Source: Paracoccus solventivorans (GTDB taxonomy: Bacteria > Pseudomonadota > Alphaproteobacteria > Rhodobacterales > Rhodobacteraceae). Taken from it: DNA of 64,000 nt. The DNA lies in NCBI RefSeq assembly GCF_900142875.1, contig NZ_FRCK01000004.1, forward strand, positions 62,001 to 126,000, written 5' to 3'. Within the stretch, counting starts at the first letter, position 1; the number at the start of each line of letters is the position of its first letter. The translations under genes and the position numbers were made by a program. Positions 38,620-47,123 of this stretch are shown in pieces. The notes beneath the pieces were generated by a model. That model did no database searches, was not told where the DNA came from, and saw nothing but the letters and a program-made list of their open reading frames with translations.

Positions 38620-39495
38620 CTAGAACCCGCCGCCGAGCGCCTGGCAGAGCCGGTCGAGCTGGTCCAGGTCGCGGTAGGTGATGGTCATCCGGCCGCCGTC
38701 CTGGCCCGCATGCTCGATACGGACCCGCATCTTGAGCTGCGCCGAAAGGTCCGATTCCAGCGCCAGCGTGTCGGCATCCTTTTCGCTGCGGATGCGCGGG
38801 GTTTCCGGTTTCGGCTGGGTGGCCTGGCGGGCCAGCGCCTCGGTCTCGCGCACGGACAGGTTGCGCTCGATCACCTTGCGGGCCATAGCGACCGGGTCGG
38901 GGGCGGTAATCAGCGCCCGCGCATGCCCGGCGGTCAGCTTGCCGTCGCGGACGAAACCTTGCACCTGTTCGGGCAGGTTGAGCAGCCGCAGCAGGTTGGA
39001 GATATGGCTGCGGCTCTTGTCCAGCGCCTCGGCGAGGCGTTCCTGGGTATGGCCGAAACGGTCCATCAGCTGGCGGAACGAGGCGGCTTCCTCGATCGGG
39101 TTCAGGTCGGCGCGCTGGATGTTCTCGATCAGCGCGACTTCCAGCACCTCGGTGTCGTCCAGCTCGCGGATCAGCACCGGCAGCTCGTGCAGCTGCGCGA
39201 TCTGGGCCGCACGCCAGCGGCGTTCGCCGGCGACGATCTGGTAGAGATCGGGCTCAGTCGGGTGTGGGCGCACGATCAGTGGTTGCAGGATGCCGCGATT
39301 GCGCAGCGACGCAGCGAGTTCGTTCAGCGCCTCGGGGTCGAACTGCCGCCGCGGCTGATCGGGGTTCGGGATGATCTGCTCGACAGGCAGGGTCTGCGGC
39401 GCCTTGGACGCAGCACCAGGGACGAGTTCGACATCGGCCATCAGCGCCGACAGGCCACGGCCAAGCCCGGCCCGGCGCGGTTTCGGATCAGCCAT
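38620..39495 (-). CDS. parB: Chromosome partitioning protein ParB
   Basis: parS-binding CTPase. 291 residues: N-terminal GLGRGLSALMADV, the CTP-binding motif GERRWRAAQ with ENIQRADLNPIEEA, the HTH region SHISNLLRLLNLPEQV, GHARALI, and a C-terminal dimer domain. It converges with hemW (three bases apart) and overlaps parA by eight bases. Two parS-like sites lie 1.3 and 3.2 kb upstream. Confidence 0.95.
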   Translation of the reverse strand: MADPKPRRAGLGRGLSALMADVELVPGAASKAPQTLPVEQIIPNPDQPRRQFDPEALNELAASLRNRGILQPLIVRPHPTEPDLYQIVAGERRWRAAQIAQLHELPVLIRELDDTEVLEVALIENIQRADLNPIEEAASFRQLMDRFGHTQERLAEALDKSRSHISNLLRLLNLPEQVQGFVRDGKLTAGHARALITAPDPVAMARKVIERNLSVRETEALARQATQPKPETPRIRSEKDADTLALESDLSAQLKMRVRIEHAGQDGGRMTITYRDLDQLDRLCQALGGGF

Positions 39496-40279
39496 GCGCT
39501 GCTGCCTTTCCTGAAGATTTCAGCCCCTTGGCCAGCAGTTCGGCGGCGAGCGCGCGATAGGCGCTGCTGCCTTTCGACTGCGGATCGTAATGGATCACCG
39601 GCAGGGCGTGGGAGGGGGATTCTGACACGCGGACATTGCGGGGGACCACGGTCTGGAACACCAGCGGGCCCAGGGTCTTGCGGGCATCAGCCTCGACCTG
39701 TTGCGACAGGTTGTTGCGGGAATCGGCCATGGTCAGCAGGATCCCCTCGATCCGCAGGTCGGGATTGGCCGAGGACCGCACCTCGCGCACGGTCAGCATC
39801 AGCTGCGAGAGGCCCTCGAGCGCGTAGAACTCCGCCTGCAGCGGCACGATGACGCTATCGGAGGCGACCATGGCGTTCAGCGTCAGCAGCCCCAGCGCGG
39901 GCGGGCAGTCGATCAGCACGATGCCGCGGGCTTGCCGCAACGCATCCGCCAGCAGCTGAGTGCGGCGCGGGCGGGCAGCGATGTCCAGTTCGGCCGAGGC
40001 AAGGTCGGCGGTGGCGGGGACGATGGCGAGGTTCGGAATGCCGGTGTCCTGTACTGCCTCGGTCCAGTCGGCATCCCCGATCAGCAGGTCGTAGCTGGTC
40101 GTCTGGCGCCCGTCGGCATCGATTCCCAACCCCGTCGAGGCATTCCCCTGGGGATCGAGGTCCACGATGGTGACCTGGAGCCCCTGTTCGGCCAGCGCCG
40201 CCCCGAGATTGATCGCGGTGGTGGTCTTGCCTACCCCGCCCTTCTGGTTTGCGACGGCGATGATCATGCGTTCAGCCAT
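39488..40279 (-). CDS. parA: Chromosome partitioning ATPase ParA
   Basis: Deviant Walker-A ATPase moving the origin region. 263 residues from [20 protein letters not shown]; Walker A' at about residues 10-18, DLDPQGNASTGLG, IDCPPALGLLT and VPLQAEFYALEG follow. The start at 40279 overlaps the end of rsmG by eight bases. Order mnmG-rsmG-parA-parB is the classic near-origin arrangement. Confidence 0.95.
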   Translation of the reverse strand: MAERMIIAVANQKGGVGKTTTAINLGAALAEQGLQVTIVDLDPQGNASTGLGIDADGRQTTSYDLLIGDADWTEAVQDTGIPNLAIVPATADLASAELDIAARPRRTQLLADALRQARGIVLIDCPPALGLLTLNAMVASDSVIVPLQAEFYALEGLSQLMLTVREVRSSANPDLRIEGILLTMADSRNNLSQQVEADARKTLGPLVFQTVVPRNVRVSESPSHALPVIHYDPQSKGSSAYRALAAELLAKGLKSSGKAAAHG

Positions 40280-40850
40280 GGCGGATATTGCTGATCTGAA
40301 GGATGGCGGCAGCGGGGTCAGTGGTGCTGGGATGGATTTCGGCGTCAAAGCGCCAATTCCGGCGGGCTGCGGTCAGCTCGGTCTGCCAGTTTCGTCCCTT
40401 CATGAGCCATGCCGTTCCGTCTTGTGCCAGATGCCGGTCCAGATATGGCACAAGCCGGTCCAGCGGGGCAAGCGCCCGGGCGCTGAGATTGGCGGCATCG
40501 GCGGGGGGCAGCTCTTCGATGCGGGCGGCCGTGGCGGTGCAATTCGCAAGTCCCAACTCCCGAATTGCGGTCTGCAGGAACGCCACCTTGCGGCGATCCG
40601 AATCGACCAGCTGCACCGGCAACTCGGGGTGGAAGATCGCGACGACCAGGCCGGGCAGGCCGCCGCCGCTGCCGATGTCGAGCCATGGGCCTTGCGGGTC
40701 GGGATGCAGCCGCGCCAGCTGTGCGCTGTCGGCGATATGGCGCTGTTCGAGTTGGGCCAGAGAGGCCGGCGCAACCAAGTTGATCGCCGAATTCCATTTC
40801 CGGATCAGCGCCGCGTACTGCACCAGCCGTGCTTCACGTGAAGCACTCAC
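40272..40850 (-). CDS. rsmG: 16S rRNA (guanine527-N7)-methyltransferase
   Basis: SAM-dependent methylation of 16S rRNA. 192 residues, with the SAM motif [28 protein letters not shown] and the late [15 protein letters not shown] start at 40850 overlapping the mnmG stop (GTGA). Its codons 3-7 fall in a parS-like palindrome. Confidence 0.94.
40830..40845. promoter_or_regulatory. parS-like site inside rsmG
   Basis: TGCTTCACGTGAAGCA is a perfect 16-base palindrome differing from the parS consensus TGTTTCACGTGAAACA at one symmetric pair. It lies at the very start of rsmG coding sequence, 551 bases from parA. Confidence 0.75.
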
Positions 40851-42715
40851 GCCGCCGCCGTCCCACAGTTCCGGGCGATACCGATCAGCAGGGTGAGCGC
40901 GGCAGGAGTCATGCCCTCGATGGCGCTGGCCTGAGCGATGGTGGCGGGACGAGTAGCGTCCAGCTTGGCCTGCAATTCATGCGAGATGCCGCGGATCTGC
41001 TGGTAATCCAGATCCTGCGGCAGGCGCATCTGTTCGTTGCGGCGAATATCGGCAGCATCGCGGGATTGCCGGTCGGTGAACTGCGCGTAGATTGCGTCGT
41101 TGCGCAGCATCTGCAGCACCTCTTCGTCAGCGACCAATTCCGGCGGAAGCAGCGGTAGCACCGCAGGCTGGGGCAGATCCACCTGACCTAGCAGACCAAA
41201 GGCAGTGCGGCGATGCCCGTCCTGCCGGACGGCGATACCATGGCCAGCCAGTTGCTGCGGCGTAAAGCTGATCGATTCGGCCCGCGCCTGCCCGGAGGTG
41301 AAACGCTGCAGCTTGTCGCAGAATCGCTCTGCCCGCTCGGCACCCACCAGCCCGATTTCCATGCCCAACGGGGTCAGCCGCCGGTCTGCATTGTCGGCGC
41401 GAAGCGACAGACGGAATTCGGCGCGAGAGGTAAACATCCGGTAAGGCTCGGTGGCGCCGCGGGTGATCAGATCGTCGATCATCACCCCGATATAGCTGCC
41501 GGTGCGGCTGAAAATCACCGGCGACCGGCCTTGCGCCGCAAGTGCCGCATTCATTCCCGCGACCAGCCCCTGTGCCGCGGCCTCCTCATAGCCGGTCGTC
41601 CCGTTGACCTGACCGGCCAGATACAGCCCGGCAACCGCACGGGTTTCCAGCGTCGGCTGCAGGCTGCGGGGGTCGATATAGTCATATTCCACCGCATAAC
41701 CCGGCTGCACGATTTCCGCCGACTCCAGTCCGCGGACCGAGCGGATATAAACCTGCTGCACGTCCTCGGGCAACGAGGTCGAGATGCCGTTCGGATAGAC
41801 CAACGGACTGTCCAGCCCCTCGGGCTCCAGGAAGATCTGATGCGAATCCTTGTCCGCAAACCGGACGATCTTGTCCTCGATCGACGGGCAGTAGCGCGGC
41901 CCCGCCCCGGCGATCCGCCCGCCGTACATGGCCGAGCGGAGCAGGTTTTCCCGGATGATGCGATGGGTTTCCGAGTTCGTATGGGTGATCGCACAGGAAA
42001 GCTGCGCCACTACAGGCGCGGCATTCAGAAAGGACAGCATTGTCGGGGGATCGTCGCCCGGTTGCTGCTCCAGACTGTCCCAGTCGATCGAACTGCGCAG
42101 CAGCCGCGGCGGGGTGCCGGTCTTCAACCGCCCCAGCGGCAGGTTCAGCGCCAAAAGCGACCCCGACAAGCCGCTGGCCTGGTCATTCCCCCAGCGCCCG
42201 GCTGGACGCAAGACATCGCCGATATGAATGGTTCCGTTCAAAAACGTCCCGGCCGCCACCACCACGGCACCGGCCATCAGTGCGGTGCCGTCAGCCAGCT
42301 CCACCCCGGCAACCCGGTTCCCCGCCAGCGCAAGCGCCTTGACCTCGCCCAACACCACTTCCAGGCCATCCAGCTTGCGCAGCTCCCGCCCTGCCGCGGC
42401 GCGGTAAAGTCCCCGGTCGGCCTGCGCCCGCGGCCCCTGAACCGCCGGCCCCTTGCGCCGGTTCAGCAACCGGAACTGGATCCCTGCTGCGTCGGCCAGC
42501 CGACCCATCAACCCATCCAGCGCGTCGACCTCGCGCACCAGATGCCCCTTGCCCAACCCGCCGATGGCCGGGTTGCAGGACATGGTCCCCGCGTCGTCGG
42601 CCCGCATCGTCACCAGCGCCACGCGCACGCCCATCCGCGCCGCTGCCGCGGCTGCTTCCAAGCCGGCGTGGCCCGCCCCGATGACAATCACATCGTAATG
42701 TTTCACGTGAAGCAC
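40847..42715 (-). CDS. mnmG: tRNA uridine-5-carboxymethylaminomethyl modification enzyme MnmG (GidA)
   Basis: FAD protein that with MnmE modifies the wobble uridine of certain tRNAs. 622 residues. FAD motif [21 protein letters not shown], then [58 protein letters not shown] and [19 protein letters not shown] start at 42715 giving MLHVKHYDV; that leader is written by a parS-like site. Adjacent to its partner mnmE. Confidence 0.96.
42699..42714. promoter_or_regulatory. parS-like site at the mnmG start
   Basis: TGTTTCACGTGAAGCA matches the parS consensus at 15 of 16 positions. It covers the start codon region of mnmG, one base from the mnmE stop codon. Confidence 0.82.
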
Positions 42716-45367: not shown

Positions 45368-45817
45368 TCAGAACTTGAGGATCACCGACAGCACGATCAC
45401 CACCATGAACAGGGTCGGGATCTCGTTGGCGATCCGATAGGTACGGCCGCTGGCGCCCTCGCCCCGCATCAGCTTGCGGCGGTGGATCATCAGCCAGTGG
45501 TGGAACACCGTCATCCCCAGCACCGCCGCCGCCTTGGTCCAGGGCCAGAGCAGCGACCAGTCCACGATCCCCGGCGTGAACACCAGCGCCAGCCCCGCCA
45601 ACCAGGTCGCGATCGAGGCCGGCCCCATGATATAGCGCAAAAGCTTGTGCTCCATGATCTCGAAGCTGGCGGCGGGCTCGCCCCCGCCCTGCGCGCGTTC
45701 GGCGTGATAGACGAACAGCCGCGGCAGATAAAACAGCCCCGCCATCCAGGAAATCACCGACATCACATGGAAGGCCTTGATCCAGAGATAGGCGTCCGAA
45801 AGCCAGTCGGTCAGCAT
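45368..45817 (-). CDS. hemJ: Protoporphyrinogen oxidase HemJ
   Basis: Membrane enzyme of 149 residues oxidising protoporphyrinogen IX. Four hydrophobic segments; family residues include the His in [33 protein letters not shown] and the Trp/His-rich [13 protein letters not shown]. Start 45817 ([18 protein letters not shown]) is the family N-terminus; a longer in-frame start reaches into the intergenic origin region. Typical neighbour of the alphaproteobacterial origin. Confidence 0.9.
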
Positions 45818-45825
45818 GGGCGGTC

Positions 45826-46250
45826 TCCTTCGCCGTCTCTCTTCTTCATAAAGAAAAGATTCAGAAAGATTGATGTGGTCAGTAGGCGCAGTGGGTATCT
45901 GAACCATCATGCGCCGCGGGATTCAATCCACGCTTTGCCGCAGTGGACAAATCGGTGGAGGAACTGGTATACCAAACCAGTAATATCATAATAATCAGTG
46001 TTTTAAACGGTTCCATCCCCGCTGTGGAAAACCCGCCTGTCCGCAGCCTGTGGACAATTCCGGTGCAGTTATGCGCCTGTGGATGGATCCCCGGCGTTCC
46101 CGTTAAGTCCCGCGGCTTCATCCACGCGGTTCCGCGGACCCCGATCCGCGCACATGGCGGTCACAGGGTTTCCCACCAGACTGTCCACAGGTGCTGCCGG
46201 CTTCCCCTCGAATCCGCCGCGCGCTAGAGATGGGGCGACATGGAACGAGG
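45826..46250. other. Candidate chromosomal replication origin (oriC)
   Basis: Gene-free segment between hemJ (leftward) and aroE (rightward). It holds an AT-rich core (about 45970-46013) and several DnaA-box-like nonamers against TTATCCACA/TGTGGATAA: TGTGGAAAA 46023-46031 (8 of 9), TGTGGACAA 46049-46057 (8 of 9), TGTGGATGG 46078-46086, TCATCCACG 46118-46126, CTGTCCACA 46181-46189 and AGTGGACAA 45942-45950 (7 of 9 each). GANTC sites occur at 45858-45862 and 45920-45924. parAB and parS lie within 7 kb, and most nearby genes read away from this point. Confidence 0.72.
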
Positions 46251-46256
46251 ATGCGG

Positions 46257-47123
46257 ATGACACAGGCCCCCGAAAGCGCTGCTGACGCCCCGCCTGCGGC
46301 GGCGGTGCCGCTCTCCGGGGTGATCGGCTGGCCGGTCGCACATTCGCGCTCGCCCCGGCTGCATGGCCACTGGCTGGCCCGCTACGGCATCAAGGGCCAT
46401 TACGTGCCGCTGGCGGTGGCGCCCGAGCATCTGGCGCAGGTGCTGCGCGCGCTGCCCCGCGCCGGCTTCGTCGGTGCTAATATCACCATCCCGCACAAGG
46501 AATCGGTGCTGGCGCTGGCCGATATCGTCACCGACCGCGCGGCGCTGATCGGTGCCGCCAACACGCTGATCTTCCGCGAGGATGGCCGCATCCACGCCGA
46601 CAACACCGATGGCTACGGTTTCGTCACCAACCTGCGCCAGCAGGCCCCCGAATGGCTGCCGGACTCCGGCCCCGCGGCGGTGATCGGCGCCGGCGGTGCC
46701 GCCCGCGCCGTGGTCGCGGCGCTGCTGGAATGCGGCGTGCCGGAACTGCGCATCGCCAACCGCACCCGCATCCGCGCCGACCAGCTCAAGGCCGATTTCG
46801 GCGCCCGCGTCGTGGTCTACGACTGGGCGCAGGTCGGCAACATGCTGGAAGGCGCCGCCACCATCGTCAACTGCACCTCGATGGGGATGGAGGGCGCGCA
46901 GCCTCTGCGGCTGCCGCTGGATGCGATGTCGCCCGACGCTCTGGTCACCGATCTGGTCTACACCCCGCTCGACACGCATTTCCTGCGCGATGCGCGGGCG
47001 CGCGGCTGCACCACCGTCGACGGGCTGGGGATGCTGCTGCATCAGGCCGCGCCGGGGTTCGAACGCTGGTTCGGTATCCACCCGCAGGTGGACGAGGACC
47101 TGCGCCGGGCGGTGCTGGCATGA
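46257..47123 (+). CDS. aroE: Shikimate dehydrogenase (NADP)
   Basis: Reduces 3-dehydroshikimate to shikimate. 288 residues: GVIGWPVAHSRSPRLHGHWL (substrate site), GANITIPHKESVLAL with the catalytic Lys, GAANTLIF, DNTDGYGF and the NADP loop VIGAGGAARAVVAAL, plus ANRTRIRA. Start 46257 has ACGAGG at a normal distance; the ATG at 46251 is too close to it. ATGA overlap with coaE. Confidence 0.95.
   Translation: MTQAPESAADAPPAAAVPLSGVIGWPVAHSRSPRLHGHWLARYGIKGHYVPLAVAPEHLAQVLRALPRAGFVGANITIPHKESVLALADIVTDRAALIGAANTLIFREDGRIHADNTDGYGFVTNLRQQAPEWLPDSGPAAVIGAGGAARAVVAALLECGVPELRIANRTRIRADQLKADFGARVVVYDWAQVGNMLEGAATIVNCTSMGMEGAQPLRLPLDAMSPDALVTDLVYTPLDTHFLRDARARGCTTVDGLGMLLHQAAPGFERWFGIHPQVDEDLRRAVLA

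Follow-up and report, generated by a model that had tools for sequence, protein, structure and literature searches.

Where does replication of the chromosome start in this Paracoccus genome? The window, that is the whole 64-kb stretch of DNA analysed here (positions 62001-126000 of the 249-kb contig C18, in a draft of 27 contigs and 3.37 Mb), contains a segment without genes between hemJ and aroE, for which a preliminary description had proposed the function of a replication origin. The proposal is supported by a cluster of DnaA boxes, the conservation of this cluster in all Paracoccus loci compared, a switch of KOPS polarity and nearby parS-like sites. Judged from these sequence features, the hemJ-aroE gap is very probably the chromosomal replication origin (oriC) of this Paracoccus.

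The left border gene hemJ (45368-45817, minus strand; NCBIfam TIGR00701, above cut-off) starts with an ATG at 45817, and the right border gene aroE (46257-47123, plus strand; NCBIfam NF001312, above cut-off) starts at 46257 or at an in-frame ATG at 46251, which is also possible. Therefore, the gap without genes comprises 45818-46250. These 433 bp have a G+C content of 57%, compared with 69% in the 64-kb window. Transcription diverges from here, with rho, mnmE, mnmG, rsmG, parA and parB on the leftward side and aroE, coaE and dnaQ on the rightward side. This divergence and the distances to parAB and parS are as given in the preliminary description, and its gene calls agree with NCBIfam, where only ParA stayed below the cut-offs. 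The HemJ protein shares 95% identity with its counterpart in Paracoccus alkenifer, the nearest relative. Rfam, searched at gathering thresholds, gave no match in the gap itself, and neither direct repeats nor a sigma-70-like promoter were detected there.

To the left of the gap lie parB (38620-39495, minus strand; TIGR00180, above cut-off) and parA (39488-40348, minus strand; ParA/MinD-type families, all below cut-off). The pattern TGYTTCACGTGAARCA occurs at only two places in the whole draft genome, both in the window and 3-5 kb from the gap. One of these parS-like sites, TGTTTCACGTGAAGCA (42699-42714), is located at the start of mnmG and the other, TGCTTCACGTGAAGCA (40830-40845), at the start of rsmG.

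The gap was scanned for DnaA boxes with the nonamer TTATCCACA, allowing up to two mismatches. Six box-like nonamers were found, of which two match at eight of nine positions and none at all nine. Box B (TTGTCCACT, 45942-45950, 7/9) lies at the left edge of the AT-rich core and is placed on the minus strand, as are box C (TTTTCCACA, 46023-46031, 8/9), box D (TTGTCCACA, 46049-46057, 8/9) and box E (CCATCCACA, 46078-46086, 7/9). Box F (TCATCCACG, 46118-46126, 7/9) and the outermost box G (CTGTCCACA, 46181-46189, 7/9) have the opposite orientation on the plus strand. An imperfect 14-nt inverted repeat (86%) surrounds boxes B to E, its arms at 45913-45926 and 46103-46116 being 176 nt apart.

The 60-mers with the highest AT content in the whole window (40 of 60 positions A or T) start at 45947-45949, between boxes B and C, which bears out the AT-rich core described before, and by its composition the segment 45947-46008 is a candidate DNA unwinding element. 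For comparison we used 39 Paracoccus loci, nine named ones and the 30 best matches of a genome search, with the window among them. The AT-richest 50-mer is found at offsets 100-200 in 25 of these loci; in the remaining 14 it lies beside the start of hemJ. Inside the AT-rich core the sequence AATCAGTGTTTTA (45993-46005, plus strand) is the sole exact match in the window to the IHF consensus WATCARNNNNTTR. Exact matches at offsets 100-215 occur in five of the 39 loci (0.5 expected), one of the five being the window, and matches with up to one mismatch in 21 (8.3 expected); the expectations come from mononucleotide shuffles, and the motif was searched after it had been noticed in the window. The P. 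alkenifer locus has no exact match to this consensus. An exact CtrA site (TTAA-N7-TTAA) is absent from the gap and present in 2/39 Paracoccus loci. The GANTC sites of the preliminary description exist (45858, 45920 and 46210) but are not distinctive; across the 39 loci GANTC is only mildly more frequent in the gap (2.67 per 440 bp) than in the control DNA downstream of hemJ (1.90), and for this reason it is weak evidence and its enrichment was rejected as an argument for an origin.

DnaA boxes are also found in promoters and titration sites. On that ground the gap might be a DnaA-binding control region, which titrates DnaA like datA of E. coli or controls hemJ or aroE, while the replication start is at another place such as dnaA. 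We regard this as very improbable. The imperfect boxes of the gap, with zero perfect and just two 8/9 matches, count against oriC and speak for such a control region; the 15 kb around dnaA, which hold no box cluster, and the position of both parS-like sites of the genome close to the gap argue against it. The 3.37-Mb draft contains TTNTCCACA at 26 places, and the only pair less than 500 bp apart is the one at 46023 and 46049. Clusters of weaker boxes (up to two mismatches) were counted on 200 kb of C18 and on 15 kb at dnaA. On C18 the densest 433-bp stretch covers the gap and holds seven boxes, one of them inside aroE, and the next best holds four. The dnaA gene is located on another contig (C10, at 371696). 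A better box cluster beside dnaA, which the preliminary description had named as speaking against the gap, was looked for in the 15 kb around the gene (C10 365001-380000) and not found: no box with up to one mismatch is present there, and the best 433 bp contain four boxes with up to two mismatches. One 8/9 box of C10, at 392174, lies outside this stretch.

In congeners a close pair of TTNTCCACA is not a reliable sign of an origin. Among the matches listed, G019, G012, G038 and G006 each have at least one such pair within 500 bp elsewhere in the genome, and the hemJ-side gap contains one TTNTCCACA box in G012 and none in G006. Isolated good pairs away from the origin, with boxes 19-153 bp apart, were seen at L245 (G019:C1:3148000-3150200), L246 (G012:C1:545500-547800) and L244 (G006:C1:1037500-1040000); these are possibly DnaA-regulated promoters or titration sites. 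The origin of G006 (L222, G006:C1:778809-782258) carries three TTRCCCACA boxes and TTATCTACA without TTNTCCACA. The helix-turn-helix segment of DnaA reads the box. As this segment is identical in G006 and five others, the window's genome included, an altered DnaA specificity behind the TTRCCCACA boxes is not supported.

Strand asymmetry gave a mixed picture of the gap. The GC skew over the window and over 200 kb of the contig is noisy in this 27-contig draft and shows no minimum at the gap. This result speaks against the oriC claim or is at best uninformative, and it counts as a point in favour of a control region. KOPS were counted as GGGNAGGG on the whole of C18 with the split point chosen at the gap. 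Left of it 5 are on the plus and 15 on the minus strand, and right of it 29 and 10, respectively (Fisher P 0.0006). The sites narrow the switch down no further than a range of about 80-120 kb on the contig, which includes the gap at 108 kb. On sampled stretches of C10 the counts are 64/15 before dnaA, 12/2 after it and 2/2 in the 15 kb holding the gene, and no switch of polarity was seen around dnaA. In the skew check suggested in the preliminary description, the GC-skew minimum did not appear at the gap. KOPS polarity switches near the gap and stays unchanged around dnaA, which argues against a start of replication at dnaA.

To compare both places in congeners, five of seven few-contig genomes with dnaA located were sampled in 20 stretches each, one G006 stretch being all N, and contrasts were calculated as right minus left for an origin placed at the hemJ-side gap or at dnaA. 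The KOPS contrasts (gap/dnaA) are 0.98/0.17 for G019, 1.39/1.13 for G038, 1.04/0.89 for G006, 1.19/0.32 for G012 and 1.29/1.26 for G115. The corresponding GC contrasts are 0.0010/-0.0031, 0.0200/0.0170, 0.0161/-0.0020, 0.0168/0.0088 and 0.0184/0.0164. For both measures the gap scores above dnaA in all five congeners, which again argues against a mere control region, although the samples of G038 and G115 hardly separate the two places because just 68-79 kb lie between them. G012 has 0.63 Mb between gap and dnaA; there the GC optimum, sought in 25-kb steps, falls at 1,225,000, and the gap is at 1,224,500. For G019 the gap gives a GC contrast close to zero, and the optimum of GC and KOPS is at 2.55 Mb, about 150 kb off the gap. 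The strand-balanced third-position skew favours the gap in three of the five congeners and dnaA in the other two, G019 and G038, the latter result being in line with a control region at hemJ; its optimum in G012 and G115 is far from both gap and dnaA.

The array of boxes is conserved. All 39 Paracoccus loci, the window included, carry at least four boxes with up to two mismatches within 480 bp upstream of hemJ. Not one of the control stretches taken from downstream of hemJ (n = 39) does so; the mean numbers of boxes are 7.6 and 0.33, respectively. Box slots were defined after the box counts in the 39 loci had been seen. The slot of box C is filled on the same strand in 37 of them, that of box G in 36, that of box B by a minus-strand box in 31, that of box E in 29 and that of box F in 16. 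For box D slot and strand are filled in 12 loci, and 25 loci have a plus-strand box in its neighbourhood instead or in addition. A further slot nearest to hemJ is filled in 29/39 loci and absent from the window. In a wider set, 80 named hemJ loci (the best 80 of 171) were compared, of which 78 have enough upstream DNA. In 75 of the 78 the densest 500-bp box window lies solely at the predicted gap (the exceptions are L041, with a tie, L050 and L071), and 77 have a box of at least 8/9 inside the gap.

The genes at the border of the origin are less constant. Searched with tblastn, the same 80 named loci (the best 80 of 171) show the order hemJ-origin-aroE in eight cases; between hemJ and aroE, maf is found in 58, maf and hemE in five, ppsR, maf and hemE in three, and ppsR and maf in one, and aroE is out of reach in five. 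Here ppsR is presumably the gene also known as COG1806/DUF299. NCBIfam assigned all of ten sampled border proteins from six loci to the Maf, PpsR or HemE families. Of the 75 named loci with aroE in view, 67 have maf between this gene and hemJ, and the eight without maf all belong to Paracoccus. Among the 30 Paracoccus loci from the genome search, aroE adjoins the gap without maf in 24, and no match to aroE or maf was found in the 1.5 kb covered for the other six (L198, L200, L205, L208, L218 and L220). In the window, no maf match was found in the locus and aroE directly adjoins the gap; none of hemE, ppsR and maf is left at this origin border. The hemE gene of the genome is located at G000:C10:280392-281399, on the contig that carries dnaA and about 90 kb away from that gene.

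The remark in the preliminary description that hemJ takes the place of the hemE of Caulobacter is right but incomplete, since hemE lies between hemJ and aroE in 8/80 relatives, with the box cluster beyond hemE. In 500-bp windows this holds for all eight loci; the expected place of the cluster was set after a first look at the data with 600-bp windows, and with these the densest place of L069 is elsewhere. The DnaA array keeps its place where the border genes change, which argues against a control region. In P. kondratievae (L020) no aroE, coaE or dnaQ was found in the locus, and the aroE side of the origin (L020:3861-9420) is occupied by genes with Rieske-type oxygenase, flavin reductase and molybdopterin oxidoreductase domains. 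L198 and L220 have a similar oxygenase gene on this side, and in all three loci the DnaA boxes stay.

We tentatively suggest that the Rhodobacterales origin may stay fixed at the margin of the hemJ-rho-mnm-parAB arm while its border genes are lost stepwise, and that in some Paracoccus the whole aroE arm might have been exchanged at the origin with the DnaA array staying behind. In that case rearrangements would occur preferentially at the edge of the origin, and the origin would be tied to the parAB arm. The states on which this reading is built (hemE-ori-ppsR-maf, hemE-ori-maf, hemJ-ori-maf and hemJ-ori-aroE) were ordered without a tree, and L054, which kept ppsR and maf and has lost hemE, does not fit any single order of losses.

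Two further explanations for the gap were considered. An AT-richer gap yields more nonamer matches than coding DNA, so that the cluster could have arisen by chance; this has a negligible probability, as dinucleotide-preserving shuffles of the gap (n = 2000) gave a mean of 0.89 boxes with up to two mismatches and not a single case with six, and the slot conservation in the 39 loci refutes it. For boxes with up to one mismatch two were observed against a shuffle mean of 0.06 (P 0.001). The rescan confirms the six boxes, two of them at 8/9, that had been claimed from the sequence before. That replication from the gap serves an integrated or secondary replicon and not the main chromosome, as could be imagined from the large extra replicons described for some Paracoccus genomes in PMC13342612, is hardly conceivable, with the core genes rho, mnmE, mnmG, rsmG, parAB, aroE, coaE and dnaQ on both sides, their order kept in most of the best 80 of 171 relatives and the hemJ gap on contigs of 2.9-3.3 Mb in the five sampled congeners.

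If the gap is the chromosomal oriC, its order of a box, an AT-rich core with the IHF match and further boxes with the last two inverted would, by analogy, correspond to a single-gap origin that is opened by DnaA with the help of IHF. As in the origins that have been studied, DnaA-ATP would bind the ordered boxes and IHF would introduce a bend between the AT-rich core and box C. The core may then be melted at about 45947-46008 by the assembled DnaA, and DnaB would be loaded there, from where two forks would leave towards rho-parAB and towards aroE-dnaQ. ParB on the two parS-like sites 3-5 kb away would subsequently segregate the new origins.

With oriC very probably at hemJ, the replication start of a draft Paracoccus genome can now be placed. 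If the origin were simply assigned to dnaA, a common shortcut, the error here would amount to at least about 158 kb, counted no further than both contig ends and provided that the contigs share one replicon. The usual alphaproteobacterial border genes (hemE, COG1806 and maf) are unreliable markers of the origin in Paracoccus, and hemJ, parS and KOPS polarity look useful for this genus.

No paper on an origin at the hemJ-aroE border was found in the open-licence literature searched. The marker-frequency study of PMC13342612 mapped ori, dif and KOPS polarity on whole replicons and includes the chromosomal origins of P. denitrificans, P. aminophilus and P. aminovorans, members of the same genus. 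For Rhodobacter sphaeroides, cumulative GC skew and par loci are reported to have been used (PMC6315104). According to PMC8116508, parAB is found near ori in almost all genomes, with exceptions that include Rhodobacterales. The Cori of Caulobacter crescentus is described as lying between hemE and COG1806 with IHF, DnaA and CtrA sites (PMC1914354). In difference to this account, the gap in the window is bordered by hemJ and aroE, has kept neither of the Cori border genes and contains no exact CtrA site; DnaA boxes, an AT-rich core and an IHF site are common to both, the IHF site of the window being predicted from the consensus match at 45993. In Rhodobacteraceae, oriC is described as conserved beside maf (PMC4793288), and by Ori-Finder with parAB as a guide oriC was assigned in 101 members and not in eight (PMC6699656). 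The window differs from the former description in that maf is gone from its border. It resembles the Rhodobacteraceae origins predicted by Ori-Finder/DoriC in these two reports (PMC4793288, PMC6699656) in its DnaA boxes, its local GC minimum and parAB nearby (38620-40348). The origin is thus ordinary in kind and well supported, and it sits where the origins of its relatives are predicted.
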